DNA from: Siphonodentalium dalli
Lineage: Eukaryota; Mollusca; Scaphopoda; Gadilida; Siphonodentaliidae
Assembly: GCA_032622095.1 (NCBI GenBank)
Contig: CP136067.1
Coordinates: 128,685,030-128,749,029, forward strand
Direction: 5' to 3'
Length of the DNA: 64,000 nt
The position numbers were made by a program, and so were the translations under genes. The notes under the pieces are model-generated. The model did no database searches and was not told the origin of the DNA. It saw nothing but the letters and a program-made list of their open reading frames with translations. Below, piece by piece: positions 9,701 to 55,100 of this stretch (position 1 is the stretch's first letter; each line of letters opens with the position of its first letter).

Positions 9701-12700
9701 GTTTAAAAATACTGATAAACATGAAAAATTGCCACCTCAAATAGAAATAAATATGCACAACAATTAGTTTCTGCATGTACCTGATGTCTTTTTCAGATGT
9801 TTACCACTTACAAATTGCGGTTTTGATTTTACCGCGATCTTGAAGTTGAATTGAATCATCAAGTTACAGCAACAACAACATTTCTTTAAGTTAGTTATCA
9901 GAATCGAATAATTACAACAAAATAATGCTAACCACTCTCAACTATTGTATAAAATTTCCCAAAACGTTTTATTTAACAACATATTGTTCAACGAAATATG
10001 GCCGTATTATCACTTGATTATCACGAAATGTGACCGTATTATACCACTTGATTTTAAAGTTATCTATATTCATCCGCAATTTTGTCCGAGACCGCCGCCT
10101 TGGTGAATGTTTCCCAGGCCACAAGTAAGTACATATCTCGAGAAATAACAAACTTCAAAAATCGATATCTGATCACTCTGAGCTATGATGGGTGGATTCC
10201 TCGACTCGAATCAAATATTTTTTACCCACGAAGCCAAAGAAATAGTAATTTGGAAGCATCGATCACGGATTATTATCATCATCGTCATCAATCTACAGGA
10301 CAAGTCTTTTGACTTTTCGTTCCGGTAACAATTACATAATATTTAGTGACAATTTAATAAATAGCAGCTCGTCTGATAACCAGCTAATTAAGAGTCTTCA
10401 AATTGATAATTCTTGCTGTGGAAGAACGAATCCAAATAAGTTTTAAATTCAGATAGATCAACTGCCTCTGCTATCATATCTGGCAGGGAGTTCCAGTCGT
10501 TAATCACGCGTTGTGTGAATGAGAATTTCTTTATAGTTTTGTTCACATTCTGTTTCTGTATTTTCAGTGAATGTCCTCGAGTTTTTGTATACAGCCCTCT
10601 TTGAAAAAATTATTATCTCTATCTATAAGTTGTAATGCCATATGATTAATGTGTATATATACCCCATTACCCCAATCAAATCACCTCTGAACCTGCGATA
10701 TTTGAGGCTCATAAGATTGAGTTTAACTAACCGTTCTCTGTATGATAATTGTTTAAACTGTGGTACCATCTTCGTCGCTTTCCGTTGAACCTAATCTCCA
10801 ATTTATCGATCTGATATTACAAATGTGGACACCACACTGTATGGCAGTACTCCAAAATAGGTCTGACCATGCTGACACATATAGTAATCGAAACGTTTCT
10901 GGATCAGATAGTTTAATGTTCTGTTAATGGTGCCTATTATGCAATAGGCTTTATTACAAGCTGTGTTGATATGAACATGAAATTGCCGTCGATTATTACT
11001 CCCAAGTCTCTTCCGGCATTGCTGATCAGTATAGGAGATTAATCGGGCGTGTCAGACATGCAGTAACTTACTTTAGGGTTGTTGTGTCCGCAATGAACAA
11101 CATGTATCTTTGATGTGTTGAAAGATAACTGCCACTACATAGACCACATACATACTGCATCGATATCGCTTTGTATGTTGTCAAATATCGGGTTATATAT
11201 ACCAATATTTTGTGTGCCATCCGCGATCATTTCACACATAGAATTTACCATTTCCGGTAGGTCCTTTATCAAAACATGGAAGAGAATTTGCCCAAGAACT
11301 TACCCTTGTGGAACTCCATTGTAAACTAATTTCCAGTCAGAAACCTCTTGACCAACACGAACTCTTTGCTTTCGTCCAGAGAGAAATGCATCGACCCAGT
11401 CCCGAATTTCGTTTTGTGTGCCATCGGCTTCGAGTTTCGCGAGAAGACGTTTGTGGGGGACTGTATCGAAGGCCTTCCTAAAGTTCAGGTAAATAGCATC
11501 CTTCGGTTGGTCGTTGTCTAATTCCGTTGTCACGAGTGAAATATATTCAACAAGTTGTGTTGGACATGATAGCTTGCTACGGAATCCATGTTGTCTGTTT
11601 GAGAAGAGGTTATATTCTTCCATATGTTTGGTAATTGCTTCAGATATAAATGATTCAATGACTTTGCACAGGATACACGTGAAGCTAACAGGTCTACAAT
11701 TACTTGGGTTTGATGGAGTTCCCTTTTTAAGCTTGTTACATCAGCATTTTTCCAAACGTCGGGGATGAATCCTTCTGAAATGTATCTGTTGAGGAGGATA
11801 CATAGGGGTGTGCTTAATTCCGTTGCTGTTTCCTTTAAGAGTCGAGCCGGGATGTTATCCGGTCCAGAACTTTTATTTGCATTCAATGAGCGTAATTTAT
11901 TTTCTACTGCAACCGGTGTAACTTGCATGTTGACAAATAATCCATATGTATGAATGGCTGGCATTGATGGCATTTTGTCCGATTTTTCTTTGCTGAACAC
12001 TGATGCAAAGAATCGATTTAGAAGCTCGGCTTGTCCATGATCGTCTGTCGTTAGTTGGGAATTTTCACTTTATTTTAAATCGCTTATTCCGCTTATTCCC
12101 TTCTTCCCTTTGTTTTGCTCTGGACATATTTCCAAAACGCTTTTGGATTTTTCTTACATTCTGAAGATAATTTCTTTTCGAATGATCGCTTGGCTTCTTT
12201 GATTCGAGCGTTTGCTAGTTCTCTCAGCTGTTTGTATTATTTGCAAACGTTACCGTTCAGAGTTAATTGAGTGGTATTTCTTGTAAGCCCTCCTGCTTAT
12301 TCATCCACATGTTCCGCTGTTTCTTTTGCTTGTTTGTAGACATGGGAATGTGTTTACGTTTAAGTTCTTCAAGTTTATCATAGAACATTTTCCAAGCATT
12401 TCTTATGTTGGTCTGCATATTCTAGTTCTTTTTTGATACTCTGATTGTCTCCCTTATTGAATTGGTATGACTTCACTGGAGTGGCTTTAGATGTGGATAT
12501 TATGTTTGTATCCAGAATTATTTCCAACATGTCGTGATCACTTTTACCTAGAGGAGAGTTATGTTGTATTTCAAATATTATATCAGGATTGTTTGTTATC
12601 ACCAGATCGAGAATGTTGGGTGTTTGGTCGTTCCTGTGCCGTGTCGGTTCAGATATTAGTTTATGTAATAAGGTACCACTGTCGAGTCCCTTGACAAAGT

Positions 12701-15700
12701 CCAGTGCTGTTTCATCGGATGCTAGACCAGATTCCCACGATATACTGTTGTATATGAAATATTGTAGATGTGTTTTGCATGTTACGCATTAATTTGTGTC
12801 TTTGCAATAAAGCATTCACATTCGGAAGTTGAAATCTCCCAGTATGAGTATGTCCACTCTCACCTTATTAAGTCCATCGAGTAATTGTATGAGGATTTCA
12901 TTGTTTGCCGTCTCTGATGTAGGACTCCTATACATGTATATGCATCCAATGAGAACTGTTTCGTTTCGAATTGTCCATGAACACCAGACGGATTCGCAGA
13001 ATTCTATTTCGTTCATCCGCTCACATTCTTGAGCTCTTATAGTGATATGTGTGTGTATATTAGAACGCCCCTTTTGGGATTAGCCCCCTGGTTTTGGGAT
13101 TAGCTCCCCTGGAACAGACCGTAGTTTGGGATTAGCCGCCTGGAACAGACCGTAGTTTGGGATTAGCCGCCTGGAACAGACCGTAGTTTGGGATTAGCTC
13201 CCCTGGAACAGACCGTAGTTTGGGATTAGCCGCCTGGAACAGACCGTAGTTTGGGATTAGCCGCCTGGAACAGACCGTAGTTTGGGATTAGCCGCCTGGA
13301 ACAGACCGTAGTTTGGGATTAGCAGCCTGGAACAGACCGTAGTTTGGGATTAGCCGCCTGGAACAGACCGTAGTTTGGGATTAGCCCCCTGGTTTTGGGA
13401 TTAGCTCCCCTGGAACAGACCGTAGTTTGGGATTAGCCGCCTGGAACAGACCGTAGTTTGGGATTAGCCGCCTGGAACAGACCGTAGTTTGGGATTAGCC
13501 GCCTGGAACAGACCGTAGTTTGGGATTAGCTCCCCTGGAACAGACCGTAGTTTGGGATTAGCCGCCTGGAACAGACCGTAGTTTGGGATTAGCCGCCTGG
13601 AACAGACCGTAGTTTGGGATTAGCCCCCTGGAACAGACCGTAGTTTGGGATTAGCCGCCTGGAACAGACCGTAGTTTGGGATTAGCCCCCTGGAACAGAC
13701 CGTAGTTTGGGATTAGCCCCCTGGAACAGACCGTAGTTTGGGATTAGCCCCCTGGAACAGACCGTAGTTTGGGATTAGCCGCCTGGAACAGACCGTAGTT
13801 TGGGATTAGCCGCCTGGAACAGACCGTAGTTTGGGATTAGCTCCCCTGGAACAGACCGTAGTTTGGGATTAGCCGCCTGGAACAGACCGTAGTTTGGGAT
13901 TAGCCGCCTGGAACAGACCGTAGTTTGGGATTAGCCCCCTGGTTTTGGGATTAGCTCCCCTGGAACAGACCGTAGTTTGGGATTAGCCGCCTGGGACAGA
14001 CCGTAGTTTGGGATTAGCCGTCTGGAACAGACCGTAGTTTGGGATTAGCTCCCCTGGAACAGACCGTAGTTTGGGATTAGCCGCCTGGAACAGACCGTAG
14101 TTTGGGATTAGCCGCCTGGAACAGACCGTAGTTTGGGATTAGCCGCCTGGAACAGACCGTAGTTTGGGATTAGCCCCCTGGAACAGACCGTAGTTTGGGA
14201 TTAGCCGCCTGGAACAGACCGTAGTTTGGGATTAGCCGCCTGGAACAGACCGTAGTTTGGGATTAGCCCCCTGGAACAAACCGTAGTTTGGGATTAGCCC
14301 CCTGGAACAAACCGTAGTTTGGGATTAGCCCCCTGGAACAGACCGTAGTTTGGGATTAGCCCCCTGGAACAGACCGTAGTTTGGGATTAGCCGCCTGGAA
14401 CAGACCGTAGTTTTTGGGATTAGCTCCCCTGGTTTTGGGATTAGCTCCCCTGGAACAGACCGTAGTTTGGGATTAGCTCCCCTGGAACAGACCGTAGTTT
14501 GGGATTAGCCCCCTGGAACAGACCGTAGTTTGGGATTAGCCCCTGGAACAGACCGTAGTTTGGGATTAGCCCCCTGGAACAGACCGTAGTTTGGGATTAG
14601 CCCCCTGGAACAGACCGTAGTTTGGGATTAGCCCCCTGGAACAGACCGTAGTTTGGGATTAGCCGCCTGGAACAGATCGTAGTTTGGGATTAGTCCCCTG
14701 GAACAGACCGTAGTTTGGGATTAGCCGCCTGGAACAGATCGTAGTTTGGGATTAGCCCCCTGGAACAGACCGTAGTTTGGGATTAGCTCCCCTGGAACAG
14801 ATCGTAGTTTGGGATTAGCCGCCTGGAACAGACCGTAGTTTGGTATTAGCCGCCTGGAACAGACCGTAGTTTGGGATTAGCTCCCCTGGAACAGACCGTA
14901 GTTTGGGATTAGCCCCCTGGTTTTGGGATTAGCCCCCTGGTTTTGGGATTAGCCCCCTGGTTTTGGGATTAGCCCCCTGGTTTTGGGATTAGCCCCCTGG
15001 AACAGACCGTAGTTTTTCAATTGCAGTTCACTGGGTGAAATTTGATATTTGAAATTTTTCGGGAAAGTTTCTGTGATACATATCAGAGCAGGGACTTTAA
15101 AAGCTATAATTATGTTCAATTCATCCCCTTTATTCATGAAGTTGTCAGCATTACAGGTTACGGTGAAGTAATTATTTCCCATAGGCCTCAGTGTTAACAT
15201 ATAATGGCCTGCAGCCCTGACTATCCACGAATTGTATTAAATGAGTACATGATCACCAGGATTGGCATCTGCGCAAAGTTTCTGCATGAAACAAATCATA
15301 TCGTCGAGCATGAAATGTACCTTTAAATTTGGGATTTATAATCTAGAGTCAGAATTGCATGAAAAAAATATTGACATTTTTTACCTCCCACCAAAAAAAT
15401 TCAATCCAGGAACCACGTGCTTTGCAATGTACCAATGTTTTGTTTGGAGTCTGAAATTTCAAGAAGAGTGATTTCATGTATTTTATATGTTTAAATATCG
15501 AAACTACTACTGACCAACCAGAGCCCAGAATTGTTTTAATTCTCTCCTGTGGCTTCTTTGATTCGAGCGTTTGCTAGTTCTCTCAGCTGTTTGTATTATT
15601 TGCAAACGTTACCGTTCAGAGTTAATTGAGTGGTATTTCTTGTAAGCCCTCCTGCTTATTCATCCACATGTTCCGCTGTTTCTTTTGCTTGTTTGTAGAC

Positions 15701-18700
15701 ATGGGAATGTGTTTACGTTTAAGTTCTTCAAGTTTATCATAGAACATTTTCCAAGCATTTCTTATGTTGGTCTGCATATTCTAGTTCTTTTTTGATACTC
15801 TGATTGTCTCCCTTATTGAATTGGTATGACTTCACTGGAGTGGCTTTAGATGTGGATATTATGTTTGTATCCAGAATTATTTCCAACATGTCGTGATCAC
15901 TTTTACCTAGAGGAGAGTTATGTTGTATTTCAAATATTATATCAGGATTGTTTGTTATCACCAGATCGAGAATGTTGGGTGTTTGGTCGTTCCTGTGCCG
16001 TGTCGGTTCAGATATTAGTTTATGTAATAAGGTACCACTGTCGAGTCCCTTGACAAAGTCCAGTGCTGTTTCATCGGATGCTAGACCAGATTCCCACGAT
16101 ATACTGTTGTATATGAAATATTGTAGATGTGTTTTGCATGTTACGCATTAATTTGTGTCTTTGCAATAAAGCATTCACATTCGGAAGTTGAAATCTCCCA
16201 GTATGAGTATGTCCACTCTCACCTTATTAAGTCCATCGAGTAATTGTATGAGGATTTCATTGTTTGCCGTCTCTGATGTAGGACTCCTATACATGTATAT
16301 GCATCCAATGAGAACTGTTTCGTTTCGAATTGTCCATGAACACCAGACGGATTCGCAGAATTCTATTTCGTTCATCCGCTCACATTCTTGAGCTCTTATA
16401 GTGATATGTGTGTGTATATTAGAACGCCCCTTTTGGGATTAGCCCCCTGGTTTTGGGATTAGCTCCCCTGGAACAGACCGTAGTTTGGGATTAGCCGCCT
16501 GGAACAGACCGTAGTTTGGGATTAGCCGCCTGGAACAGACCGTAGTTTGGGATTAGCTCCCCTGGAACAGACCGTAGTTTGGGATTAGCCGCCTGGAACA
16601 GACCGTAGTTTGGGATTAGCCGCCTGGAACAGACCGTAGTTTGGGATTAGCCGCCTGGAACAGACCGTAGTTTGGGATTAGCAGCCTGGAACAGACCGTA
16701 GTTTGGGATTAGCCGCCTGGAACAGACCGTAGTTTGGGATTAGCCCCCTGGTTTTGGGATTAGCTCCCCTGGAACAGACCGTAGTTTGGGATTAGCCGCC
16801 TGGAACAGACCGTAGTTTGGGATTAGCCGCCTGGAACAGACCGTAGTTTGGGATTAGCCGCCTGGAACAGACCGTAGTTTGGGATTAGCTCCCCTGGAAC
16901 AGACCGTAGTTTGGGATTAGCCGCCTGGAACAGACCGTAGTTTGGGATTAGCCGCCTGGAACAGACCGTAGTTTGGGATTAGCCCCCTGGAACAGACCGT
17001 AGTTTGGGATTAGCCGCCTGGAACAGACCGTAGTTTGGGATTAGCCCCCTGGAACAGACCGTAGTTTGGGATTAGCCCCCTGGAACAGACCGTAGTTTGG
17101 GATTAGCCCCCTGGAACAGACCGTAGTTTGGGATTAGCCGCCTGGAACAGACCGTAGTTTGGGATTAGCCGCCTGGAACAGACCGTAGTTTGGGATTAGC
17201 TCCCCTGGAACAGACCGTAGTTTGGGATTAGCCGCCTGGAACAGACCGTAGTTTGGGATTAGCCGCCTGGAACAGACCGTAGTTTGGGATTAGCCCCCTG
17301 GTTTTGGGATTAGCTCCCCTGGAACAGACCGTAGTTTGGGATTAGCCGCCTGGGACAGACCGTAGTTTGGGATTAGCCGTCTGGAACAGACCGTAGTTTG
17401 GGATTAGCTCCCCTGGAACAGACCGTAGTTTGGGAATAGCCGCCTGGAACAGACCGTAGTTTGGGATTAGCCGCCTGGAACAGACCGTAGTTTGGGATTA
17501 GCCGCCTGGAACAGACCGTAGTTTGGGATTAGCCCCCTGGAACAGACCGTAGTTTGGGATTAGCCGCCTGGAACAGACCGTAGTTTGGGATTAGCCGCCT
17601 GGAACAGACCGTAGTTTGGGATTAGCCCCCTGGAACAAACCGTAGTTTGGGATTAGCCCCCCTGGAACAAACCGTAGTTTGGGATTAGCCCCCTGGAACA
17701 GACCTTAGTTTGGGATTAGCCCCCTGGAACAGACCGTAGTTTGGGATTAGCCGCCTGGAACAGACCGTAGTTTTTGGGATTAGCTCCCCTGGTTTTGGGA
17801 TTAGCTCCCCTGGAACAGACCGTAGTTTGGGATTAGCTCCCCTGGAACAGACCGTAGTTTGGGATTAGCCCCCTGGAACAGACCGTAGTTTGGGATTAGC
17901 CCCTGGAACAGACCGTAGTTTGGGATTAGCCCCCTGGAACAGACCGTAGTTTGGGATTAGCCCCCTGGAACAGACCGTAGTTTGGGATTAGCCCCCTGGA
18001 ACAGACCGTAGTTTGGGATTAGCCGCCTGGAACAGATCGTAGTTTGGGATTAGTCCCCTGGAACAGACCGTAGTTTGGGATTAGCCGCCTGGAACAGATC
18101 GTAGTTTGGGATTAGCCCCCTGGAACAGACCGTAGTTTGGGATTAGCTCCCCTGGAACAGATCGTAGTTTGGGATTAGCCGCCTGGAACAGACTGTAGTT
18201 TGGGATTAGCCGCCTGGAACAGACCGTAGTTTGGGATTAGCTCCCCTGAAACAGACCGTAGTTTGGGATTAGCCCCCTGGTTTTGGGATTAGCCCCCTGG
18301 TTTTGGGATTAGCCCCCTGGTTTTGGGATTAGCCCCCTGGTTTTGGGATTAGCCCCCTGGAACAGACCGTAGTTTTTCAATTGCAGTTCACTGGGTGAAA
18401 TTTGATATTTGAAATTTTTCGGGAAAGTTTCTGTGATACATATCAGAGCAGGGACTTTAAAAGCTATAATTATGTTCAATTCATCCCCTTTATTCATGAA
18501 GTTGTCAGCATTACAGGTTACGGTGAAGTAATTATTTCCCATAGGCCTCAGTGTTAACATATAATGGCCTGCAGCCCTGACTATCCACGAATTGTATTAA
18601 ATGAGTACATGATCACCAGGATTGGCATCTGCGCAAAGTTTCTGCATGAAACAAATCATATCGTCGAGCATGAAATGTACCTTTAAATTTGGGATTTATA

Positions 18701-21700
18701 ATCTAGAGTCAGAATTGCATGAAAAAAATATTGACATTTTTTACCTCCCACCAAAAAAATTCAATCCAGGAACCACGTGCTTTGCAATGTACCAATGTTT
18801 TGTTTGGAGTCTGAAATTTCAAGAAGAGTGATTTCATGTATTTTATATGTTTAAATATCGAAACTACTACTGACCAACCAGAGCCCAGAATTGTTTTAAT
18901 TCTCTCCTGTGGCTTCTTTGATTCGAGCGTTTGCTAGTTCTCTCAGCTGTTTGTATTATTTGCAAACGTTACCGTTCAGAGTTAATTGAGTGGTATTTCT
19001 TGTAAGCCCTCCTGCTTATTCATCCACATGTTCCGCTTTTTCTTTTGCTTGTTTGTAGACATGGGAATGTGTTTACGTTTAAGTTCTTCAAGTTTATCAT
19101 AGAACATTTTCCAAGCATTTCTTATGTTGGTCTGCATATTCTAGTTCTTTTTTGATACTCTGATTGTCTCCCTTATTGAATTGGTATGACTTCACTGGAG
19201 TGGCTTTAGATGTGGATATTATGTTTGTATCCAGAATTATTTCCAACATGTCGTGATCACTTTTACCTAGAGGAGAGTTATGTTGTATTTCAAATATTAT
19301 ATCAGGATTGTTTGTTATCACCAGATCGAGAATGTTGGGTGTTTGGTCGTTCCTGTGCCGTGTCGGTTCAGATATTAGTTTATGTAATAAGGTACCACTG
19401 TCGAGTCCCTTGACAAAGTCCAGTGCTGTTTCATCGGATGCTAGACCAGATTCCCACGATATACTGTTGTATATGAAATATTGTAGATGTGTTTTGCATG
19501 TTACGCATTAATTTGTGTCTTTGCAATAAAGCATTCACATTCGGAAGTTGAAATCTCCCAGTATGAGTATGTCCACTCTCACCTTATTAAGTCCATCGAG
19601 TAATTGTATGAGGATTTCATTGTTTGCCGTCTCTGATGTAGGACTCCTATACATGTATATGCATCCAATGAGAACTGTTTCGTTTCGAATTGTCCATGAA
19701 CACCAGACGGATTCGCAGAATTCTATTTCGTTCATCCGCTCACATTCTTGAGCTCTTATAGTGATATGTGTGTGTATATTAGAACGCCCCTTTTGGGATT
19801 AGCCCCCTGGTTTTGGGATTAGCTCCCCTGGAACAGACCGTAGTTTGGGATTAGCCGCCTGGAACAGACCGTAGTTTGGGATTAGCCGCCTGGAACAGAC
19901 CGTAGTTTGGGATTAGCTCCCCTGGAACAGACCGTAGTTTGGGATTAGCCGCCTGGAACAGACCGTAGTTTGGGATTAGCCGCCTGGAACAGACCGTAGT
20001 TTGGGATTAGCCGCCTGGAACAGACCGTAGTTTGGGATTAGCAGCCTGGAACAGACCGTAGTTTTGGGATTAGCCGCCTGGAACAGACCGTAGTTTGGGA
20101 TTAGCCCCCTGGTTTTGGGATTAGCTCCCCTGGAACAGACCGTAGTTTGGGATTAGCCGCCTGGAACAGACCGTAGTTTGGGATTAGCCGCCTGGAACAG
20201 ACCGTAGTTTGGGATTAGCCGCCTGGAACAGACCGTAGTTTGGGATTAGCTCCCCTGGAACAGACCGTAGTTTGGGATTAGCCGCCTGGAACAGACCGTA
20301 GTTTGGGATTAGCCGCCTGGAACAGACCGTAGTTTGGGTTAGCCCCCTGGAACAGACCGTAGTTTGGGATTAGCCGCCTGGAACAGACCGTAGTTTGGGA
20401 TTAGCCCCCTGGAACAGACCGTAGTTTGGGATTAGCCCCCTGGAACAGACCGTAGTTTGGGATTAGCCCCCTGGAACAGACCGTAGTTTGGGATTAGCCG
20501 CCTGGAACAGACCGTAGTTTGGGATTAGCCGCCTGGAACAGACCGTAGTTTGGGATTAGCTCCCCTGGAACAGACCGTAGTTTGGGATTAGCCGCCTGGA
20601 ACAGACCGTAGTTTGGGATTAGCCGCCTGGAACAGACCGTAGTTTGGGATTAGCCCCCTGGTTTTGGGATTAGCTCCCCTGGAACAGACCGTAGTTTGGG
20701 ATTAGCCGCCTGGGACAGACCGTAGTTTGGGTTTAGCCGTCTGGAACAGACCGTAGTTTGGGATTAGCTCCCCTGGAACAGACCGTAGTTTTGGGATTAG
20801 CCGCCTGGAACAGACCGTAGTTTGGGATTAGCCGCCTGGAACAGACCGTAGTTTGGGATTAGCCGCCTGGAACAGACCGTAGTTTGGGATTAGCCCCCTG
20901 AACAGACCGTACCGTAGTTTGGGATTAGCCGCCTGGAACAGACCGTAGTTTGGGATTAGCCGCCTGGAACAGACCGTAGTTTGGGATTAGCCCCCTGGAA
21001 CAAACCGTAGTTTGGGATTAGCCCCCTGGAACAAACCGTAGTTTGGGATTAGCCCCCTGGAACAGACCGTAGTTTGGGATTAGCCCCCCCTGGAACAGAC
21101 CGTAGTTTGGGATTAGCCGCCTGGAACAGACCGTAGTTTTTGGGATTAGCTCCCTGGTTTTGGGATTAGCTCCCCTGGAACAGACCGTAGTTTGGGATTA
21201 GCTCCCCTGGAACAGACCGTAGTTTGGGATTAGCCCCCTGGAACAGACCGTAGTTTGGGATTAGCCCCTGGAACAGACCGTAGTTTGGGATTAGCCCCCT
21301 GGAACAGACCGTAGTTTGGGATTAGCCCCCTGGAACAGACCGTAGTTTGGGATTAGCCCCCTGGAACAGACCGTAGTTTGGGATTAGCCGCCTGGAACAG
21401 ATCGTAGTTTGGGATTAGTCCCCCTGGAACAGACCGTAGTTTGGGATTAGCCGCCTGGAACAGATCGTAGTTTGGGATTAGCCCCCTGGAACAGACCGTA
21501 GTTTGGGATTAGCTCCCCTGGAACAGATCGTAGTTTGGGATTAGCCGCCTGGAACAGACTGTAGTTTGGGATTAGCCGCCTGGAACAGACCGTAGTTTGG
21601 GATTAGCTCCCCTGAAACAGACCGTAGTTTGGGATTAGCCCCCTGGTTTTGGGATTAGCCCCCTGGTTTTGGGATTAGCCCCCTGGTTTTGGGATTAGCC

Positions 21701-24700
21701 CCCTGGTTTTGGGATTAGCCCCCTGGAACAGACCGTAGTTTTTCAATTGCAGTTCACTGGGTGAAATTTGATATTTGAAATTTTTCGGGAAAGTTTCTGT
21801 GATACATATCAGAGCAGGGACTTTAAAAGCTATAATTATGTTCAATTCATCCCCTTTATTCATGAAGTTGTCAGCATTACAGGTTACGGTGAAGTAATTA
21901 TTTCCCATAGGCCTCAGTGTTAACATATAATGGCCTGCAGCCCTGACTATCCACGAATTGTATTAAATGAGTACATGATCACCAGGATTGGCATCTGCGC
22001 AAAGTTTCTGCATGAAACAAATCATATCGTCGAGCATGAAATGTACCTTTAAATTTGGGATTTATAATCTAGAGTCAGAATTGCATGAAAAAAATATTGA
22101 CATTTTTTACCTCCCACCAAAAAAATTCAATCCAGGAACCACGTGCTTTGCAATGTACCAATGTTTTGTTTGGAGTCTGAAATTTCAAGAAGAGTGATTT
22201 CATGTATTTTATATGTTTAAATATCGAAACTACTACTGACCAACCAGAGCCCAGAATTGTTTTAATTCTCTCCTGCATCTTGGTCCAAAATCCGTTGGAG
22301 GGCGCTACCAATCGAATTACTTCACTGTAACCTAAAGTGACAACAGCGTCAATGACATGCCATCTGAAAATGACACAAATCGGTCCCTGGACTCTTCACA
22401 TTTGAAAATAAAATACAAAATCTCTATCCATGACTTTCTTTTCGTCTTATTAACCCTTTCCTGACCCCACCCCTGTTTACAACCGCAACACAAAATATCT
22501 TAAAATGAACACGAAAAGTCACCATGTGAGGTCCATGTCGATAAAGTAAACGATGGTAGCATATATACACATCATTAGTGTTATAGCTGACCGATTTCTC
22601 TCTGAGAAAATATGGACGATGGTTCGCTCGATAAACATGGACACGCTTGAGCTTGAATTGGGCGCACTTGACAAATTCTGAGGCCTGGTAAACGAAATTT
22701 TTGCATAAAACTGAAGTTTTGAGTGCAGTAGAATTATTCCGTGCCTACATGTATGTACATGGGAACAGCCACATCACTCAAACACACCACCGTGTTACAC
22801 TTTTTGTCGACAAGCCACCTCAAGCAGACTAATTGGCTGCCATTTAACCCTGCCTGGTCATGTTTTACATCAAATTTTAGAGACCTGCCACAGATAGCGA
22901 TGTAGTTTGCTCTTATGGCTAGTCGAAAAGCCTTTATTTCAGTTGTGTACTGACCCTCGATGTTCAATGCGTGAATGGTTACCATGACATTCATTAAAGG
23001 TACACATATGGGCTCATAACGGACAAAAAAAAGGGATTTTCGAAGTGAAAATTTGAAGCAAAAATTGTCCCAGATGGGTTAATATTGGCTTCTCATTGAT
23101 TACCACCGACTCAAATAATATAATATGCCACGTGCTACAGGTTCCCTAATTGTTTGTTGGTCAATATTGATAGGAAACCCACCACTGGGCCCAAATGAGA
23201 AAAATGACAATTTTTGTGCTTTAGGTTACAGTGAAGTAATTATTTCCCATAGGCCTCAGTGTTAACATATAATGGCCTGCAGCCCTGACTATCCACGAAT
23301 TGTGATAAATGAGTACATGATCACCAGAATTGGCATCTGCGCAAAGTTTCTGCATGAAAAAAATCATATCGTCGAGCATGAAATGTACCTTTAAATTTGG
23401 GATTTATAATCTAGAGTCAGAATTGCATGAAAAAAATATTGACATTTTTACCTCCCACCAAAAAATTCAATCCAGGAACCACGTGCTTTACAATGTGCCA
23501 ATGTTTTGTTTGGAGTCTGAAATTTCAAGAGGAGTGATTGCATGTATTTTATATGTTTAAATATCGAAACTACTATTAACCAACCAGAGCCCAGATTTTT
23601 TTTAATTCTCTCCTGCATCAAATTGCGGTTGTAAGATGGATAACTCTAAAATCAAGTGGTTATTATTGTTAATAGTAACCACTTGATTTTAGAGTTATCC
23701 ATCTTACAACCGCAATTTGTCCGTTTGAGCCCGTGGTCCTGGACAAGATCTGGTCCACATACAATAGAAACAGTAAACTTCAAAGATCGATATCTAATCA
23801 CTCTGAGCTTTGATGGGTGGGATCCTCGATTCGAATAAAATATTTGTTACCCCCGAAGCCAAAGAAATAGGAATTTAGGAGAGTCTGATCGGATTGAGTA
23901 CCTTTACACGGTAATATAACGTATTTACCAACTAATAGTACACTCAGAAACAAAGACACATCAAACGTACTTATAACATACACATAGTGTCACGGGACAG
24001 TGTTTCCACAAGCATTCTCATTGTTTCCAAGTATATATATAGGCATTTAATGAACCAAATTAGGAACCCAAAGGAACTATTTGGTTCCATGTTCTAGTTC
24101 TATCCGGGGAACCAGATATAGAAGCAAAGCGGGTCACATTGGATCTCCCCTCGGGACAAAATTAGAAACAAGTTTGGTTTCATGTGGATCCAAAATGTCT
24201 TGTGTACTTAACTTGGTTCTTTAATTTGGTTCTTCGTGAAAAACCAAAACGTGTAATGTAATGTTTGTCTTTGCGAAGAACCAATTTGGTTCTTCGTTTC
24301 GTTCCCCCACTGGGACAAACCTAGGAACCAGTTTTAGTTACCAAGCTTTCTATGTATGCAGATAGCTGAAACGGGCTCCCTTTGGGAGCCTTTATACAGA
24401 GTCGGAAGTGAATTTTCTTTTTAGATTGAACTCCTTGCTCCGCTTATTTGCAACGCAATTATCACCCCTGCTCTAAAAATTCCACACCCCTGAGACGAGG
24501 CAAGGTCGTTGTACGTGTAGATGTAGAAACACTCACCAAATTGCCTTCCAAGATAATGAAAGATAGCCATGGTGTGTGGTATCACCTCTCCATCGACTTC
24601 TAGAAGAGGTATCAATCCAAACGGCGTGTCTGCAAAGAGAGACGCTAGCTGTATTATACTAACGCTCGATGGGTCACTCTCTGTGTTTTGTTGCGTTTTT

Positions 24701-26949
24701 GGGGGGATGAAGTTACCCATGCAGGTTCCCAAAATTGTGATAAATTATGATAAAATTACCCAGGTTAATTAAATTTAAAAATGGATGGTCCTCATATATC
24801 ATCAGATTCCAACAACAAATATATAACATTTTGTGTAATGCCCCTTCAGTTATTAGAATCGATTAATTGCCCAAAAATAATGCATAAAATTGTCCAGAAC
24901 GTGTTATTTATCAACATTTTGTTCAACGAAATATGGCCGAATTGTCAATATATCTAACGCCAGGGCCACTTGATTTTAGAGTTATCCATATTCATCTGTA
25001 ATTTGGTCCGAGACCGTCGGTTTGACGACTTTTTACCGGCCACCAATAACTACACATCTCGAGAAATAAAAAAATTCAAAATTCGATATCTGATCAATCT
25101 GAGATTTGATGGTGGGTTCCGACTAAAATCAAATATTGTTTACCACCGAAGCCAAAGAAATAGTAACTAATTGGGAGCGTTAATTCGGATTAGGTATCTT
25201 TAATATATGCTGCCCGGCCAAATTCCCATCAATCTTTAAAGTGATGTGATTAGCTTTATTTAAGGCCGTGCACCGTTTATGACGCCGTAAATATATAGCC
25301 ACTCATCCGGGGGGGGGGGGGTCGTGAGAAACTTTACACATACAGGGCCCAAACAAAAAAATTACAGCCCTTTTGCTACCCACCCACCCTTTTTGTGCAA
25401 AAAAAATATTTTTTTCCGCCTGATTTTTTTGGACCCACCCCCTAAAATAAGAAAAAAAATCATTTAAATCTATTCAAGACCTAATCAAACAGAATCAAAG
25501 GTAAGTTTTAAATTGGTCCGTTTCTGGCAGATTCCAAGTGTTCAAACAATTGAAAAACTATCAACGGTTATGATGTTGTTTTCGACATTGAAAAATACAT
25601 TTTGAAATAGAAAGTGTTTTATTCTACAGTATGCACATATATTGTGAGGTAATATTTATAGTGCCAATAAGCCAACATTGTGTTTAATTTTTACATAAAT
25701 AGTCCAGTTACTAATTAATGACTTCTTCACTGTTGTTCCCAAAAAGGTGCCACCAACCATCATATCAGAACACCTTATAGCCATGCCTGCAATGACAGTT
25801 ATAAAGTATATAAGTATCACTCTTTGGAGCCAAATAAACAGGCTGGCATGTTTATTTTTTAATTTGAGGTATTTTGTTAGCCAGCACTCTGCAGCACTAG
25901 TATTATTTGGTCATTAGACATGCCACAGTGAAACAATATTAATTTGAGGTGAAATGCAAATCAGCACTCCTATTCAGTCATCACTTTTATTTGGCACCAG
26001 AGAGTGCTTTATCTTATACCTACATATGTTCTTAAGTGTTGGTTAATGTCATAATCTATGTTAGAACCAGGGTTGGGTATAAGATATAAGTAATACAGAG
26101 GAGATCTTCCAAAAACATACCTATACCGGGCGGGTGGGTGCATCTCAGAGGCCTGAAAAAAATTGTTTGTGCAAATATTTTTCAATCCACATTATGGACA
26201 TTGTTTTAAGTTGTTTTCACTAATAAATGTGTTCTAAGTTAGAACACATTTATTAGTGAAAACAACTTAAAACAATGTCCATAATGTGGATTGAAAAATA
26301 TTTGCACAAACAATTTTTTTCAGGCCTCTGAGATGCACCCACCCGCCCGGTATAGGTATGTTTTTGGAAGATCTCCTCTGTATTACTTATATCTTATACC
26401 CACCCTGTTCCTAAGTGTCTGTAAAGGCCATAACCTGCCTTAGAACACAATTATTAATGAATATATTTGAAACAACTTAAAACAAGGGCAAAAATGTGAA
26501 TAGAATTTTTTTTGCACAAACTCCTTTTTTCGGGCCTCTTCGGACCCACCCATGGCACCCGGCCTGTATGATAACACTTTTGTGCGACCCCCCCCCCCCC
26601 GACTCATCTTAAATTTACGCCATGACGTCATTCGGGTTATTTCAAAGTTATTTGATGATATATAATATACCAAGCTCTGCTAGCGAATTATCCGAACGGA
26701 CGCGTACCCTGGCTTCAGCAGAATTGTCCACCATGCATGTACTCTTATGCCACCCAGTATACTTATTAGGGCATACACCGAAAGTAATTTATATATACAG
26801 TTACCTGGTTTCATCTTCAGCCATTCCGCTCTGTCTTTCCCATATTCCAGTAAAACGTCTTCGAAGTCTACATTTGCTACCTTGAAAATCAAACGTATTG
26901 CTTCAGCCCTCCCACGAACATTGAAGTATGTTAGTTTATAGGACGCCAT
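6611..26949 (-). CDS. Sigma-class glutathione S-transferase, copy A (complete, 5 exons)
   Basis: Exons on the minus strand are 26949-26805, 24629-24537, 8389-8274, 7460-7350 and 6796-6611. They total 651 bases, join in frame at GT-AG borders, and give 216 residues plus stop, close to the usual sigma-class length. The N-terminal thioredoxin-like domain (about 1-78) has YKLTYFNVRGRAE with catalytic Tyr8, Arg14 and Trp43, and cis-Pro56. The all-helical C-terminal domain (about 82-216) has the helix N-cap box T-I-A-D at 157-160. Such enzymes conjugate glutathione to electrophiles in the cytosol, and some isomerise prostaglandin H2; which applies is unknown. The glutathione-contacting Gln-Ser pair is replaced by His67-Thr68. 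Intron 2 is about 16 kb and full of repeats; intron 1 carries a 1.3-kb transposon absent from copy B. The reading frame is undamaged. Confidence 0.92.
7350..7460 (-). CDS. GST-A exon 4
   Basis: 37 codons, phase 0 at both ends. Acceptor TTTTATAG and donor GTATGA. It begins DKMRSDFRETYLPRVLATLE and ends GYLVGDK, which joins directly to exon 5 LTIAD. Confidence 0.92.
8274..8389 (-). CDS. GST-A exon 3
   Basis: 116 bases, phase 1 in and phase 0 out. Acceptor CACCACAG and donor GTAAGT. It encodes ALDGTNDQERMRVDVMV and ends FYAKNTDRI, the first helices of the GST C-terminal domain. Joined to exon 2 it gives YLGRQFALDG, matching the family's linker. Confidence 0.92.
8548..8760. repeat. TA-flanked palindromic MITE (about 95-bp arms)
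   Basis: Two nearly perfect inverted arms meet at about 8653 (GGAAAGCTCTCACCGAGAGC). The right end is GCATTACTG followed by TA, the left CATTAATGC preceded by TA. Related copies are at 37815-37955 and 54197-54340. TA flanks suggest Tc1/mariner-type mobilisation. It lies in GST-A intron 2. Confidence 0.75.
8978..9144. repeat. Palindrome with 73-bp arms
   Basis: The arm beginning GGGGATAACAGTGTGGTG is repeated inverted on the right, ending CACACTGTTATCCCC, around a loop of about 20 bases at 9051-9070. It is a foldback MITE or hairpin; no other copy was noticed in the window. Confidence 0.75.
9145..9850. other. Intron sequence with nothing recognised
   Basis: No exon, long repeat or hairpin was recognised here. 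It lies in intron 2 of GST-A. Confidence 0.4.
9855..10270. repeat. MITE-1 copy abutting the LINE 3' end
   Basis: It contains the CAACAACAACA run, the TCAGAATCGAATAATT block and the CTCGAGAAATAACAAA block, and ends near GATCACGGATTATTATC. A short ATC-rich stretch separates it from the LINE tail. Confidence 0.7.
10271..13066 (-). mobile_element. Decayed non-LTR retrotransposon (LINE), endonuclease and reverse transcriptase
   Basis: Read on the minus strand, fragments appear in order. An AP-type endonuclease is at 13020-12820 (ILGDFNF) and 12600-12380 (GKSDHDMLEI). A reverse transcriptase follows at about 12060-11200 (SSGPDNIPARLLKETA, then FRKAFDTVPHKRLLAKLE, then YNGVPQG). The C-terminal part ends NSLPDMIAEAVDLSEFKTYL with a stop near 10390. 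The tail ends in ATC-type short repeats. The frame is broken several times, and the expected F-A-D-D catalytic motif reads I-A-D-G (about 11225), so it is inactive. It resembles CR1/Jockey-type elements, but the clade is unresolved. It lies opposite to no gene: it has the same orientation as GST-A, inside intron 2. Confidence 0.88.
13072..15015. repeat. 31-bp minisatellite, array 1
   Basis: The core unit is TTTGGGATTAGCC followed by GCCTGGAACAGACCGTAG, with 32-bp (CTCCCCTGG) and short 20-bp (GGTTTTGGGATTAGC) variants, about 60 units. On the minus strand the unit contains AACTACGGTCTGTTCCAG, the codons of N-Y-G-L-F-Q in the LINE endonuclease. The array sits exactly at that position in the LINE. 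Confidence 0.93.
15016..15155 (-). pseudogene. LINE endonuclease N-terminal fragment, unit 1
   Basis: On the minus strand it reads FMNKGDELNIIIAFKVPALI and onward to NYGLFQGANPK, the start of an AP-endonuclease domain. It is cut by E1 upstream and by the minisatellite downstream. The same fragment recurs at about 18376-18515 and 21743-21881. Confidence 0.85.
15156..15549. mobile_element. TIR element E1, 3'-truncated copy (unit 1)
   Basis: It starts GGTTACGGTGAAGTAATT and shows 394 of the 451 bases seen in the complete E1 at 21882-22332. The truncation is the tandem-duplication breakpoint. Confidence 0.8.
15550..18909. repeat. 3.36-kb tandem unit 2
   Basis: 3360 bases, almost identical to unit 1 base for base, including its own minisatellite (about 16431-18375) with the same order of variant repeats. 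The few differences include single-base changes and length changes within the minisatellite. Confidence 0.93.
16431..18375. repeat. 31-bp minisatellite, array 2
   Basis: Same variant order as array 1, with scattered changes such as GGGAATAGCC near 17431 and GACCTTAG near 17701. The shared order shows the array existed before the large unit was duplicated. Confidence 0.93.
18910..22275. repeat. 3.36-kb tandem unit 3
   Basis: 3366 bases. It shares with unit 2 changes absent from unit 1 (for example CCTGAAACAG near the end of the array). It joins on the right to the rest of a complete E1. Confidence 0.93.
19791..21742. repeat. 31-bp minisatellite, array 3
   Basis: Same unit order as arrays 1 and 2, with extra small indels such as ACCGTACCGTAG near 20908 and a lengthened C run near 21085. 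It is the most changed of the three. Confidence 0.93.
21882..22332. mobile_element. TIR element E1, complete (451 bp)
   Basis: It begins GGTTACGGTGAAGTAATT and ends AATTACTTCACTGTAACC, an inverted repeat of about 18 bases with one mismatch. It carries TTTCCCATAGGCCTCAGTG and AGCCCAGAATTG, blocks also present in E2 (50826-51276), which has exactly the same length. It has no coding potential. The right flank is TAAAG, as in the E2 array. Confidence 0.8.
22333..23223. repeat. Spacer S1 between two E1 copies (891 bp)
   Basis: It starts TAAAGTGACAACAG and ends TTTGTGCTTTA, directly before the next E1. Spacer S2 (51277-52178) has the same borders (TAAAGCG, CCCTTTA) and nearly the same length, 902 bp. 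Open frames inside match no family I recognise. Confidence 0.7.
23224..23619. mobile_element. TIR element E1, second copy, truncated by MITE-1
   Basis: It starts GGTTACAGTGAAGTAATT and follows E1 to TCTCTCCTGCATC, where MITE-1 sequence begins. It is more divergent from the other E1 copies than the three triplicated ones are from each other. Confidence 0.8.
23620..23906. repeat. MITE-1 copy with inverted internal hairpin
   Basis: A foldback (about 23622-23718) repeats the AAGTGGTTATTATTG region and TTTTAGAGTTATCCATCTT in both orientations. The right half is ordinary MITE-1 ending CGGATTGAGTACCT. Confidence 0.7.
24030..24340. repeat. GGTTC-rich repeat, copy 2
   Basis: Same blocks in the same order as 5620-5935, including AACCCAAAGGAACTATTTGG and TCCGGGGAACCAGATA. 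Confidence 0.5.
24537..24629 (-). CDS. GST-A exon 2
   Basis: 93 bases between a CTCTCTTTGCAG acceptor and a GTGAGT donor, phase 1 at both ends. It encodes TPFGLIPLLEVDGEVIPHTM and ends HYLGRQF. It differs from copy B by few residues (Ile55 vs Val, His73 vs Asn). Confidence 0.93.
24790..25201. repeat. MITE-1 copy in GST-A intron 1
   Basis: It has the CAGATTCCAACAACAA start region and ends GGTATCT followed by TTAA. It is orthologous in position to the copy in GST-B intron 1. Confidence 0.75.
25308..26601. mobile_element. DNA transposon-like element with G-run/C-run ends and a 7-bp target duplication
   Basis: It begins with C plus a run of G and ends with a run of C plus G. The exact direct repeat ACTCATC flanks it (25301-25307 and 26602-26608). 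Subterminal sequences are also inverted (ACACATACAGGGCC against the reverse of GGCCTGTATGATAACAC). The right half contains a 164-bp-arm palindrome. Copy B of the GST gene lacks the element in the same intron, so it came after the gene duplication. The superfamily is not identified and no transposase is seen. Confidence 0.72.
26072..26404. repeat. Near-perfect palindrome, 164-bp arms with 5-base loop
   Basis: The arms meet around GTTCTAAGTTAGAAC at 26231-26245. The left arm starts near GGGTATAAGATATAAG and the right ends at its reverse complement. Divergence between the arms is very low, suggesting recent formation or gene conversion. Confidence 0.88.
26805..26949 (-). CDS. GST-A exon 1
   Basis: Start codon at 26949-26947, donor GTAACT at 26804. 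An in-frame upstream ATG at 27099 exists in the open frame, but the family begins at MASYKLTYF, with catalytic Tyr at residue 8, so the downstream start is chosen. Confidence 0.92.
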
Positions 26950-49100: not shown

Positions 49101-52100
49101 TTTTATAGCAATTAATTTTTTAAGGTTTTATACCGTAGATATCAAAATAAATGGTGATCGGTCTCATTCGTGAGACTGCTCTGAATACATATAGTTCTGC
49201 TTCTAGAGAATGGCCGCATAGTCAATACATCCCTACTAAATCCCGTTTAGCTGTTTAATTACACATATATCACACGATTCAAGATTAGCGGTACAGATAA
49301 AACTGCGTCATTTTTCCGTTTGTGGACACCCAAAAGTCCAGATTTAACCGCTCCACAAGACCCTGATTTCGCTTGCTCTCTCGTGAGATACATCAGAAAG
49401 AATTTGTACATCTCTAATCAAAAGTTTCTCTTATACTTGTAGTCATTCTTCCTCTCAATATTCGAGCGTTTGTTCACTCGTATAGGACTAGCTATTCAAT
49501 TTTGCACTAAATGTAAATTTCATTCGATTTTGTCCATTTTGGTGGCCATTTTGGGAAAAATATTCTACATATATGGTTTACGACTAAGCAATGTTTGTGT
49601 ATATTTCAATTTATTTCGAATTTGCCATTAATTGGAGCACCTGCCGCATAATTCAGTATTTTCCGATAACAACAGACATTATGGACACCATCTTCAATAG
49701 AGAATTTTCCCCAAAGCGGATTTTGGATATGTTGTTCCCTACATTCTGCCCGACTATATGACACCAAAAACAGCTTGTAAACAATTTGTTCTAGGTCCAA
49801 TGCTTCAACGACCAGACTACTGATGCTAAAGATTGTTGTACAACCATGGGGCATCACGATTATGCATTGTGTCCTTGGGGATACATTGTATAGACAAACC
49901 AAAAACTTAAAAACTTCTAAAGAAGTTTCCAATGAAACTAAAAAAAACTTGATAATAAGATACGCTCAAGAGAAGATGAGGAAAAAGCAGAATGAGGTCC
50001 ACAGAGGGTGAATTTAGTGATGCTTGTCCACTGGGTGGGGTAGCATCACTAAATTCACCTTCTGAGGACCTCATTCTGCAATTGTCTAGCACCATAATGA
50101 TATTTTCAAGCCCACTCAACTTGGAAACAATACAAATGCTATTCTTTGATTCCGAGTTATGACATCATATTTTTTAGTAGACACACATGTATTATCGGCA
50201 CGCGCAGTGATGTAACAGTTTAGTGCAATGATATCATTGTCAATGCCGGAACTTTATTATTATGTTAATTAGAATATACATGTAGTTGTGATATTCAATT
50301 TGTGTTGGGTTATTTAGTGTTGACTGAGAGATAAATATGGGTGATAATGGTGATTGAACAATTTTGTCAACATGAAAAGACACATTTAAAATGGAACTAT
50401 ATTTTTCCTCTTTGATTGTGATAAGGAAATAAATATTAATTTTGTTTAACCCCAGCCATTTAAGATCATTTTTCCTTACTAAGATGTGATTATGTGATAA
50501 AATGGATCTCAATTTCGTGGCAATTCTATACAAAATTTATTAACCTTATCCACTAAATTTGATTCAAGCTTCGGTAAAGCTTGGCTCAAATCAAATATAG
50601 TGCACTCAGTTAATAAATTTTGTATAGAATTGCAACTCATCAAAGATCCTCTGTCTATGCCCCACACAAGCCTTGAAATAGGGTGTCTGTCATTTGCAGA
50701 ATGAGGTCCCCAGAGGGTGAATTTGGTGATGCTAACCCGCTATGCGGGGTAGCATAACTAAATTCACTCTCTGCGGACCTCATTCTGCAAATGACAGACA
50801 CCCTATTTCAAGGCTTGGCCCCACAGGTTACACTGGTGTAAATGTTTCCCATAGGCCTCAGTGCTAACGTTTTAGCGTATAGTGTTGGCAATATAAATGT
50901 TGGGTCCAAAATTTTCTTTAAATCTGAAAAATTGACATTTTGGGAAACTTTTTACACAAAAAAATCATGTCTGTCTAGCAGGGAATTCGCCTTTAAATCT
51001 TATGTTTTCGTAACTAGTGTCAGAACCGCATAAAAAAATACAGTCATATTTTAGACCACACCAAAATATTCAAACTTCACTACAAAGGGTTAATTCCTGT
51101 GCCAATGGTTATTTTACCTATGGGAAATCATAGGGAAGAGGTGTGATGATTTTTTTATGTGAAAAGCACACAAGGCTATTGACCAATCAGGGCCCAGTGT
51201 CTATTTTATTCTCTCCTATATATTCCTCCCGCATCCGCTAGATGTCACTCGGAACCTTATTTACACCAGTGTAACCTAAAGCGATAGCCCGCTTTTTCGC
51301 GGAATAATTGTAACTCCCTACATTTCTTCAGAATTGCCCATCAATGGAAAAAATGTGTTCAAAAACAATATCACCCCTATGGTTCTTTATTTATCACACA
51401 CAATTTAACCCCACCCCCTTTAACAAATTATTCATCAAAAAGGCACAATTTTCCACCACCAGTCATGTTCAGGCCCCATTTTCACTCAGTTTTAGGGGTC
51501 TGGTGTTGCAAACTTGGATCAGCTATGGAAGACTGTACAATATTCTTTCCATGAGAGAACTTCTGGTGATGTGAGGTCATTGAGTCCAGATCTGATCAGC
51601 TGAGCATCAAGCGCATGACTTTATCAGCACATTGAAGAATAAAATATGACATTTTCAGGTCTGCAAGGGTGATCCAAGATAACTGGATGTGGGTGTATAT
51701 TGAATTAGTTGAATAAAGATATGCTCTCTTTGAATTGCTGAAGCATTTTCTTAAATGTGTCCAAGTTTTAGTGCTATTAACCTTCAAATGACCATACCCA
51801 CCAGTGGAAATGACACACTTTTATGATATATATCTGTATATCACTGGCTATAAAATCCAAAATACTTGTTAGATTAGGTTCTTATAACAATTGATATATG
51901 TGTCGTTGACATGCTCATGTTATGGGTCATTTGCATTATCATGTGACTATTACCACCTTGAAATTTTTTGAAAATACCTTGAAAAATTGGCATTTTTTAT
52001 GAAAAATCTTACTATTTTTTTGGCTGATGTAAGTGAAAGAAGACATCAGCAGCAAGAATAGCCACACCAAGCATGAGATATTCATTGGACTGAAAGACCA

Positions 52101-55100
52101 GGCTCTGTAAAATGCATTAAAATGCTTTAAAGTGACTCCCAGGAATCAAAAATGATAAAAAGCTATTTTTTCCCTTTAGGTTACACTGGTGTAAATGTTT
52201 CCCATAGGCCTCAGTGCTAACGTTTTAGCGTATAGTGTTGGCAATATAAATGTTGGGTCCAAAATTTTCTTTAAATCTGAAAAATTGACATTTTGGGAAA
52301 CTTTTTACACAAAAAAATCATGTCTGTCTAGCAGGGAATTCGCCTTTAAATCTTATGTTTTCGTAACTAGTGTCAGAACCGCATAAAAAAATACAGTCAT
52401 ATTTTAGACCACACCAAAATATTCAAACTTCACTACAAAGGGTTAATTCCTGTGCCAATGGTTATTTTACCTATGGGAAATCATAGGGAAGAGGTGTGAT
52501 GATTTTTTTATGTGAAAAGCACACAAGGCTATTGACCAATCAGGGCCCAGTGTCTATTTTATTCTCTCCTATATATTCCTCCCGCATCCGCTAGATGTCA
52601 CTCGGAACCTTATTTACACCAGTGTAACCTAAAGCGATAGCCCGCTTTTTCGCGGAATAATTGTAACTCCCTACATTTCTTCAGAATTGCCCATCAATGG
52701 AAAAAATGTGTTCAAAAACAATATCACCCCTATGGTTCTTTATTTATCACACACAATTTAACCCCACCCCCTTTAACAAATTATTCATCAAAAAGGCACA
52801 ATTTTCCACCACCAGTCATGTTCAGGCCCCATTTTCACTCAGTTTTAGGGGTCTGGTGTTGCAAACTTGGATCAGCTATGGAAGACTGTACAATATTCTT
52901 TCCATGAGAGAACTTCTGGTGATGTGAGGTCATTGAGTCCAGATCTGATCAGCTGAGCATCAAGCGCATGACTTTATCAGCACATTGAAGAATAAAATAT
53001 GACATTTTCAGGTCTGCAAGGGTGATCCAAGATAACTGGATGTGGGTGTATATTGAATTAGTTGAATAAAGATATGCTCTCTTTGAATTGCTGAAGCATT
53101 TTCTTAAATGTGTCCAAGTTTTAGTGCTATTAACCTTCAAATGACCATACCCACCAGTGGAAATGACACACTTTTATGATATATATCTGTATATCACTGG
53201 CTATAAAATCCAAAATACTTGTTAGATTAGGTTCTTATAACAATTGATATATGTGTCGTTGACATGCTCATGTTATGGGTCATTTGCATTATCATGTGAC
53301 TATTACCACCTTGAAATTTTTTGAAAATACCTTGAAAAATTGGCATTTTTTATGAAAAATCTTACTATTTTTTTGGCTGATGTAAGTGAAAGAAGACATC
53401 AGCAGCAAGAATAGCCACACCAAGCATGAGATATTCATTGGACTGAAAGACCAGGCTCTGTAAAATGCATTAAAATGCTTTAAAGTGACTCCCAGGAATC
53501 AAAAATGATAAAAAGCTATTTTTTCCCTTTAGGTTACACTGGTGTAAATGTTTCCCATAGGCCTCAGTGCTAACGTTTTAGCGTATAGTGTTGGCAATAT
53601 AAATGTTGGGTCCAAAATTTTCTTTAAATCTGAAAAATTGACATTTTGGGAAACTTTTTACACAAAAAAATCATGTCTGTCTAGCAGGGAATTCGCCTTT
53701 AAATCTTATGTTTTCGTAACTAGTGTCAGAACCGCATAAAAAAATACAGTCATATTTTAGACCACACCAAAATATTCAAACTTCACTACAAAGGGTTAAT
53801 TCCTGTGCCAATGGTTATTTTACCTATGGGAAATCATAGGGAAGAGGTGTGATGATTTTTTTATGTGAAAAGCACACAAGGCTATTGACCAATCAGGGCC
53901 CAGTGTCTATTTTATTCTCTCCTATATATTCCTCCCGCATCCGCTAGATGTCACTCGGAACCTTATTTACACCAGTGTAACCCACACTGCCAGCTGACAC
54001 TGCTGGAACTTTAGAGATTTTGATATCAGACTGATATATGAGCACATATGATGATGTATTTATATCCTGCTGTAGAAGCCAGCAGCTCTGTAATCAGTGC
54101 CCTGTAATTACCTGGGTTTCCTGGTCACTGATTTAGATAAATACACCATGATCTGATTGATTTCAAGTACAGTTGTTATCAAAACACTGTTAGGTACAGT
54201 AGTGCCCTAAGTAATCGACCCCTTAACCACATCAGAATTATGGGTAATTTTTCAGGATTTAGTCGGAAATATGGCTTGTTGCCATTCATCGGAAAGCTCT
54301 CACGGAGAGGGGTCGATTACAGTTACTAAGGGCATTACTCTACATGTAGATCCTGAGTTTCCACCAGCCGCACATCTTCTGGGAAGTATCTATAGTCTCA
54401 AATTAACTTTGTTTTTAGTTACTTTTTCCCTTCTGGGAAGTTTCTATATCCCCTAATTTGCAGAAGATAAAATGCATAATCGAAGTAACTAATGGGTGAA
54501 CATCAACTTCAACTGAGGAAATTCATTCTGATCCTATGGTAGGTCTCCCATAGCAGTTGAGGCCTAAACAGAATGAGGTTCCCAGAGGGTGAATCCGTGT
54601 GTGGGGTAGCGTCACTAAATTCACATGCTCTGGGGACATCAATCTGCATATGACAGACACACTATTTGCAAGCTTGGTTCGGACTTTTATTATATGACTA
54701 GCATTTTTCTTTCCCCAACTCCACTATAGTAAAGGGATCATTTCCTGACCATCGGATCAGCTACAGTTTGATCCAATGTCATACCACCCATCTCGCATAC
54801 TGCGCATGACCGCAAAAAGCCGGATGATTTATTATACAAAAATAGTTTCTTCTTTATTCTTGTTACCAGTGGCCAACATGTGGTTTCATTTCAAAATTAA
54901 TTGTGCTTTTTTAATTGTTGAAGAGGTCAGATCCCTGGATCAAACTGGATGCCTGCAGTGGCTCGTTTAATCCAGCAATCTGACCTCTTCAACTCCAGGT
55001 GATACTTAGCCCAGATCAATTCACTGCAGTGATAACATGTATGTATTCCATTAGTGTGAGACACTAATATGTATTTAATAGCTTGTGATTCACTCTTTAA

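Follow-up and report, generated by a model that had tools for sequence, protein, structure and literature searches.

KolobokP was described in 2022 as an animal DNA transposon, a composite-like lineage of Kolobok (Kojima & Bao, Mobile DNA 13:24; PMC9587614). In the available text of that description, the elements carry long terminal direct repeats (LTDRs) of about 450 or 660 bp, each with its own inverted ends of up to 18 bp in the form 5'-RR…YY-3'. The internal region (INT) between them encodes a DDD/E transposase on the direct strand and, downstream, an antisense nuclease resembling I-PpoI. The transposase has a CCHC zinc finger after the first D and a DxxH motif between the second D and the E. 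Duplications of 3-5 bp surround solo repeats, monomers and multimers, and the forms reported include solo LTDRs, (LTDR-INT)n-LTDR multimers, INT-INT junctions, which have lost 3 or 4 bp almost always, and non-autonomous families. The same text likens KolobokP to bacterial composite transposons and to TRIMs. It presents the origin of the multimers (for which unequal crossover, circle integration and nuclease-induced exchange are proposed) and the purpose of a homing-type nuclease as models awaiting experiment (PMC9587614). A literature search for the KolobokP name found only this paper, and one that combined Mutator-like transposase and homing endonuclease gave no paper.

We analysed a window of 64,000 nucleotides in which two families of a terminal repeat (E1, E2) and an internal segment (S1, S2) are laid out in the same way (Table 1). 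E corresponds to the KolobokP LTDR, and S to a non-coding INT. We consider it very probable that E1-S1-E1 and (E2-S2)n-E2 are two non-autonomous KolobokP families, most likely moved by the transposase of coding relatives and forming arrays that grow mainly in place. The assignment follows from the match between their anatomy and the available part of the published description: LTDR length, inverted ends with RR…YY termini, 4-bp duplications, a direct-strand transposase and an antisense nuclease in the coding relatives, and solo, multimeric, INT-INT and non-autonomous forms are alike. The earlier note on this DNA had recognised no described superfamily here; that view falls away since the anatomy is that of KolobokP (PMC9587614, as far as its available text goes). 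Judged by anatomy and domain matches, the element is a new member within known KolobokP rather than an unrecognised superfamily.

Table 1. KolobokP-related features of the window (INT, internal region; LTDR, long terminal direct repeat).
Feature	Position	Strand	Remarks
E1 fragment (1-394)	15156..15549	+	within 3.36-kb tandem duplication
E1 fragment (1-394)	18516..18909	+	within same 3.36-kb tandem duplication as 15156..15549
E1, complete LTDR	21882..22332	+	451 bp; non-autonomous KolobokP family; 18-bp inverted ends, one mismatch
S1, non-coding INT	22333..23223	+	891 bp; ends TAAAG…CTTTA; 71 genomic matches listed
E1b, 3'-truncated LTDR	23224..23619	+	matches E1 1-398
E2 LTDR, first copy	50826..51276	+	451 bp
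S2 INT, first copy	51277..52178	+	902 bp
E2 LTDR, second copy	52179..52629	+	identical to first E2
S2 INT, second copy	52630..53531	+	902 bp; identical to first S2
E2 LTDR, third copy	53532..53982	+	identical to other E2 copies

E1, S1 and E1b are arranged head to tail, and the inverted ends of E1 read GGTTACGGTGAAGTAATT and AATTACTTCACTGTAACC. The match of E1b to E1 is 96%, with the last 53 of the 451 bp missing, and its right side abuts an unrelated foldback, where the composite is damaged. Owing to this loss, E1-S1-E1b in the window offers no readable right-hand target-site duplication. The second family forms an array with a period of 1353 bp (50826-53982) and a CACA flank on either side. 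Aligned end to end, E1 and E2 are 63.6% identical (E = 8e-39) and have TTTCCCATAGGCCTCAGTG and GRGCCCAG…CTCTCCT in common, and their GGTTAC…GTAACC ends form terminal inverted matches of 18/18 positions in E2 and 17/18 in E1. S1 and S2, by contrast with their common TAAAG…CTTTA ends, are otherwise near-unrelated: their best local match has E = 0.12, and the score of their global alignment lies at z = 3.8 relative to 200 mononucleotide shuffles. Much of this had been read correctly in the earlier note, which reported that E1/S1 repeats the layout of E2/S2, with the lengths that we measured, and that GGTTAC ends, internal E motifs and CTCTCCT are common to both families, as are the TAAAG…CTTTA borders of S. 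It also gave the lengths and order of E1-S1-E1 as we find them, but the right-hand E1 is incomplete, being cut at base 398, and the two further E1 fragments in Table 1 were overlooked. We note that window 52470-52480, inside E2, carries the conserved TTTCCCATAGG of that repeat once more in inverted form, as CCTATGGGAAA; by eye there is no such copy in E1.

Coding relatives were found with a general E-start pattern, which has 1904 matches; among the 100 listed, five pairs lie 4.2 to 6.0 kb apart. At all five loci E-like repeats flank a coding internal region of about 4 kb, one repeat (in L083) being cut by the piece end. The four copies with both ends (L079-L082) all show 4-bp duplications (ATAA, TAGA, TAAT, AGTA), and their INT ends, TAAAG (CAAAG in L080)…CTTTA, are like those of S. 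Coding E repeats are 451 bp (L081) and 450 bp (L083) long and about 70% identical to E2 or E1; none of the coding copies has repeats identical to either. E1, E2 and these two have their ends and TTTCCCATAGGC in common. S1 and S2, set against the internal regions of the coding copies L081 and L083, showed nothing significant beyond the 5-bp ends.

The domain matches belong to these coding relatives, not to S1 or S2. A 593-residue reading frame of L081 matches the Mutator-like transposase family PF20700 (E = 8e-48), and a 132-residue ORF on the opposite strand matches zf-His_Me_endon (E = 2.8e-13), as does the nuclease of L083 (7e-14). Against PDB sequences, the antisense nuclease matched I-PpoI (E = 5e-4), and the transposase had no match at E up to 10. 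Both coding families contain the nuclease motif SH-x-C-x4-C-x4-H-x3-E-x4-N, in keeping with the S97/H98/H110/E114/N119 spacing given in the available text of PMC9587614; by our own reading, its cysteines would correspond to positions 100 and 105. Candidate transposase motifs identified by eye are DAQADG, VTDPD, DSAH and QKAEAFN, and between the first and second D both families conserve C, H, C and C, in the order C-H-C-C, not CCHC. In PHROGs, the small ORFs matched endonuclease/HNH families and the transposase had two matches at chance level; NCBIfam gave no match for three ORFs. Scoring the best 74 of 708 candidates gave, counting the query's own locus, 75 transposase matches, 44 of which span query residues 1-593 without a stop. 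Coding units also occur in tandem, with eight at 4495-bp spacing on C2. A separate stretch, C3:3219782-3289244, holds at least 15 listed tandem coding units, most at spacings near 4.48 kb, and in 14 of them the first ~91 query residues of the transposase are missing.

We then counted ends and junctions across the genome (2.23 Gb, 9 contigs) as exact matches, so that all such counts are lower bounds. The 25-base E2 5' end occurs 261 times, and its reversed control 0 times. The S2-to-E-start junction (the last 12 bases of S2 plus the first 13 of E, a pattern that includes E variants outside the 261-count pattern) occurs 3389 times, with 0 in the control. The first 100 listed E2 starts fall into 43 clusters, of which 28 have 2 to 9 copies and 15 are single; neighbour spacing is exactly 1353 bp in 30/57 cases and departs from this by no more than a few bases in most of the rest. 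These ends, spacings and junctions indicate that the E-S layout is not due to chance.

Outer flanks were taken for all 43 E2 clusters, and 28 were readable on both sides; the remainder comprise eight with S on the left, four with S on the right and four without a readable 3' end, one cluster being in two groups. Identical 4-bp outer flanks were present in 22 of the 28, as against 3.6% of mismatched flank pairs, around clusters with 1, 2, 3, 4 and 6 E copies. The other six had no matching duplication; they include C3:254589134, a cluster also read as flanked by S. These outer duplications identify the whole (E-S)n-E array as the inserted unit. Together with the identical layout of the coding version, they support the earlier note's view that the composite is real and has a tandem way of life.

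For E1, the best 40 of 1384 candidates were scored, 39 of them outside the window, and these copies are ranked by likeness to the window copy rather than sampled at random. S1 adjoins 17 of the 39 (13 of 35 single loci plus four members of two E-S-E pairs), and 22 have no S1 on either side. The alternative that E is usually solo, without an S spacer, is thus true of just over half of these best E1 copies but not of the listed E2 sample, in which 28/43 clusters are multi-copy; frequent solo E1 is expected of KolobokP terminal repeats. A 4-bp duplication is present in 11 of the 22 E1 copies without S1 (mismatched pairs, 9.5%) and absent in 11; two E1 loci, L106 and L117, have the same flanks and may be one event. 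By eye, TNNA fits 12/22 E2 and 10/11 E1 duplications and TTAA 0/33, and the inner E/S borders, TTTA and TAAA, likewise fit TNNA. At two loci on C1 (L103, L109), E1 lies between CTTTA and TAAAG although neither S1 end is present; perhaps it adjoins another internal region there.

If E were a miniature, TRIM-like LTR enclosing the interior of a non-autonomous LTR retrotransposon (S), with arrays arising via LTR recombination or template switching, the direct repeats at the termini, the 4-bp duplications, the solo repeats and the multimers with shared repeats would look alike. We regard this as extremely unlikely. The repeats begin and end with GGTTAC…GTAACC, not TG…CA, and their termini are inverted over 18 bp; Pfam identified no retroelement domain (reverse transcriptase, integrase, gag) in the four ORFs scanned; the coding copies, with PF20700 transposase and zf-His_Me_endon nuclease, contradict it. 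The likeness to bacterial composite transposons and TRIMs extends to direct terminal repeats round an internal region, solo repeats and tandem arrays, but the transposase here lies in the internal region and not in the repeats. It is also extremely improbable that E began as a separate miniature inverted-repeat element, inserted by chance into an S satellite, and that the mixture then spread by unequal crossing-over. That account would accommodate direct S-S tandems with interspersed E and the E1 copies without adjoining S1. However, S2-to-E-start junctions (3389) far exceed S2-S2 junctions (440) among exact matches, the E/INT borders are the same in two diverged families and in the coding element, and the S-E-S border, TTTA-E-TAAA, holds no 4-bp duplication; dispersed (E-S)n-E units enclosed whole by outer duplications refute it.

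To ask how KolobokP arrays grow, we examined the differences among 46 full S2 units; these come from 17 arrays, several of which are parts of longer arrays: the window array, three picked for S-S junctions (L075, L077, L078) and 13 with at least three E copies. S2 units differ on average by 2.9 changes within arrays vs 4.8 between them, and E2 repeats by 1.2 vs 2.2 (in each case 0/5000 label shuffles were as low). Thirty-one S2 variants occur in more than one unit; 23 of these are confined to a single array and eight are common to several, where shuffling, which treats S2 units as independent, gives a mean of 1.3 private variants and a maximum of 11 in 2000. The multimers have therefore probably grown largely in place, and this is the reading that we favour. 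For instance, about 19 bp are absent from all three S2 units of L091.

Could the multimers instead be built first, circles being one possible source, and only then transpose as complete arrays? The single outer duplication round arrays of up to six E copies would suit such a route, as would the eight of 31 multi-unit variants found in several arrays and the units that are as close to other arrays as to their own; in L085, units are 1 to 13 changes apart, and the closest unit outside the array is at 0 changes. Nevertheless, 11 of the 17 arrays carry at least one multi-unit variant that is absent from all the other arrays compared (the 23 private variants all fall in these), and in 10 of the 11 every full unit has it. 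Three coding units on C9 likewise follow a common 6.2-kb period, measured as match spacing, where about 4.5 kb is usual. We therefore consider assembly before insertion unlikely. In-place growth alone does not explain L085 and the eight between-array variants, for which exchange between arrays, or insertion as a multimer, may account. Beside the E2 array of L077 (C3:234754100-234760100), about 90 bp away, lies an opposite-strand E-type repeat, 75% identical, which is probably a further family.

Direct S2-S2 and S1-S1 junctions number 440 and 257 genome-wide. Of the first 100 S1-S1 junctions listed, 98 lie in C2:86964883-87057002, and the array is at least this long (92 kb). Another region, C9:130421198-130535757, holds 56 of the 71 listed S1 matches, and 9.8 kb read within it consists of S1 with E1 between some units only. 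The first 100 listed S2-S2 junctions are concentrated in two stretches of C1 (237.98-238.08 and 275.62-275.91 Mb) and one of C2 (12.07-12.47 Mb), and take the forms CTTTAAAG, with 2 bp lost, and CTTAAAG, with 3 bp lost. Among the first 100 S1-S1 junctions listed, those on C2 have either CTTTAAAG or the intact CTTTATAAAG, with no base lost. Junctions within an array are not independent events. The available text of PMC9587614 differs in giving losses of 3 or 4 bp, compared with 2 bp, 3 bp or none here, and at most LTDR-(INT)4-LTDR, compared with at least 98 S-S junctions in 92 kb. The signs of in-place growth, satellite-scale S-S tandems and S1-S1 junctions without microdeletion are thus mildly new additions to what is known of KolobokP.

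Two other described systems bear comparison. Canonical Kolobok, as outlined in the same text, also has RR…YY ends and 4-bp duplications, many of which are TNNA here, but its duplication is TTAA, found in none of our 33, and our elements have in addition paired long direct repeats. In Crassostrea gigas, CgiSat13 and CgiSat16 are likewise satellite-scale tandem repeats annotated DNA/Kolobok (available text of PMC8268682), although their monomer is 2414 bp and the likeness runs via that annotation rather than a KolobokP label.

Taken together, these structures are consistent with the following scheme. A DDD/E transposase supplied by coding relatives would most likely cut the outermost GGTTAC…GTAACC ends, and the whole unit would be inserted with the 4-bp duplication that we see, S being an internal region that may have lost, or never held, coding sequence. 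Arrays would then enlarge mainly in place, as the direct repeats E undergo unequal exchange or serve in the repair of breaks. Where E is excised or lost through recombination, the S-S junctions observed could be left behind, which may in turn enlarge to tandems of satellite scale, and solo E could come from recombination or from its own transposition. A more specific proposal, which we think distinctly unlikely, is that the target of the His-Me nuclease is either the E/INT border or the INT-INT junction CTTTAAAG, and that repair of its breaks from a neighbouring unit drives in-place growth as a homing-like drive. This junction is palindromic with the centre TTAA, which resembles the TTAA overhang given for I-PpoI in the available text of PMC9587614. 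If this were true, a DNA transposon would be turning its own internal region into a satellite. In this genome, transposase copies free of stops are numerous and nearly identical, E-S junctions run into the thousands and arrays have private variants; these make it a good test ground for nuclease-made tandem arrays and for a route from transposon to satellite.

Several further structures lie around the first family. Window 12191-22275 contains a 3.36-kb unit in three copies, each with about 1.8 kb of 31-bp repeats; by eye, E1 base ~394 is joined at the unit's junction to an antisense endonuclease/LINE-like stretch. Two distinct E1 breakpoints, 4 bp apart (394 and 398 of 451; window 15549, 18909 and 23619), fall at CTCTCCTGCATC, and their near-coincidence could be chance, or reflect a fragile or cut site. 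A break near base 394-398 was seen in 0/6 E2-type loci with odd 3' ends, four of which align across the whole repeat and two of which end at base 84. The foldback adjoining E1b (23619-23721) is near-perfect. An Rfam scan of 21700-23800 (E up to 1) found no hammerhead or other ribozyme, and gave 10 microRNA matches under gathering scores, all inside 23617-23721, plus one further chance-level match (E = 0.8) at the same foldback; the microRNA-family matches are probably due to its hairpin shape. Finally, window 26071-26405 is an inverted repeat with 167-nt arms that are 99% complementary and 1 nt between them.
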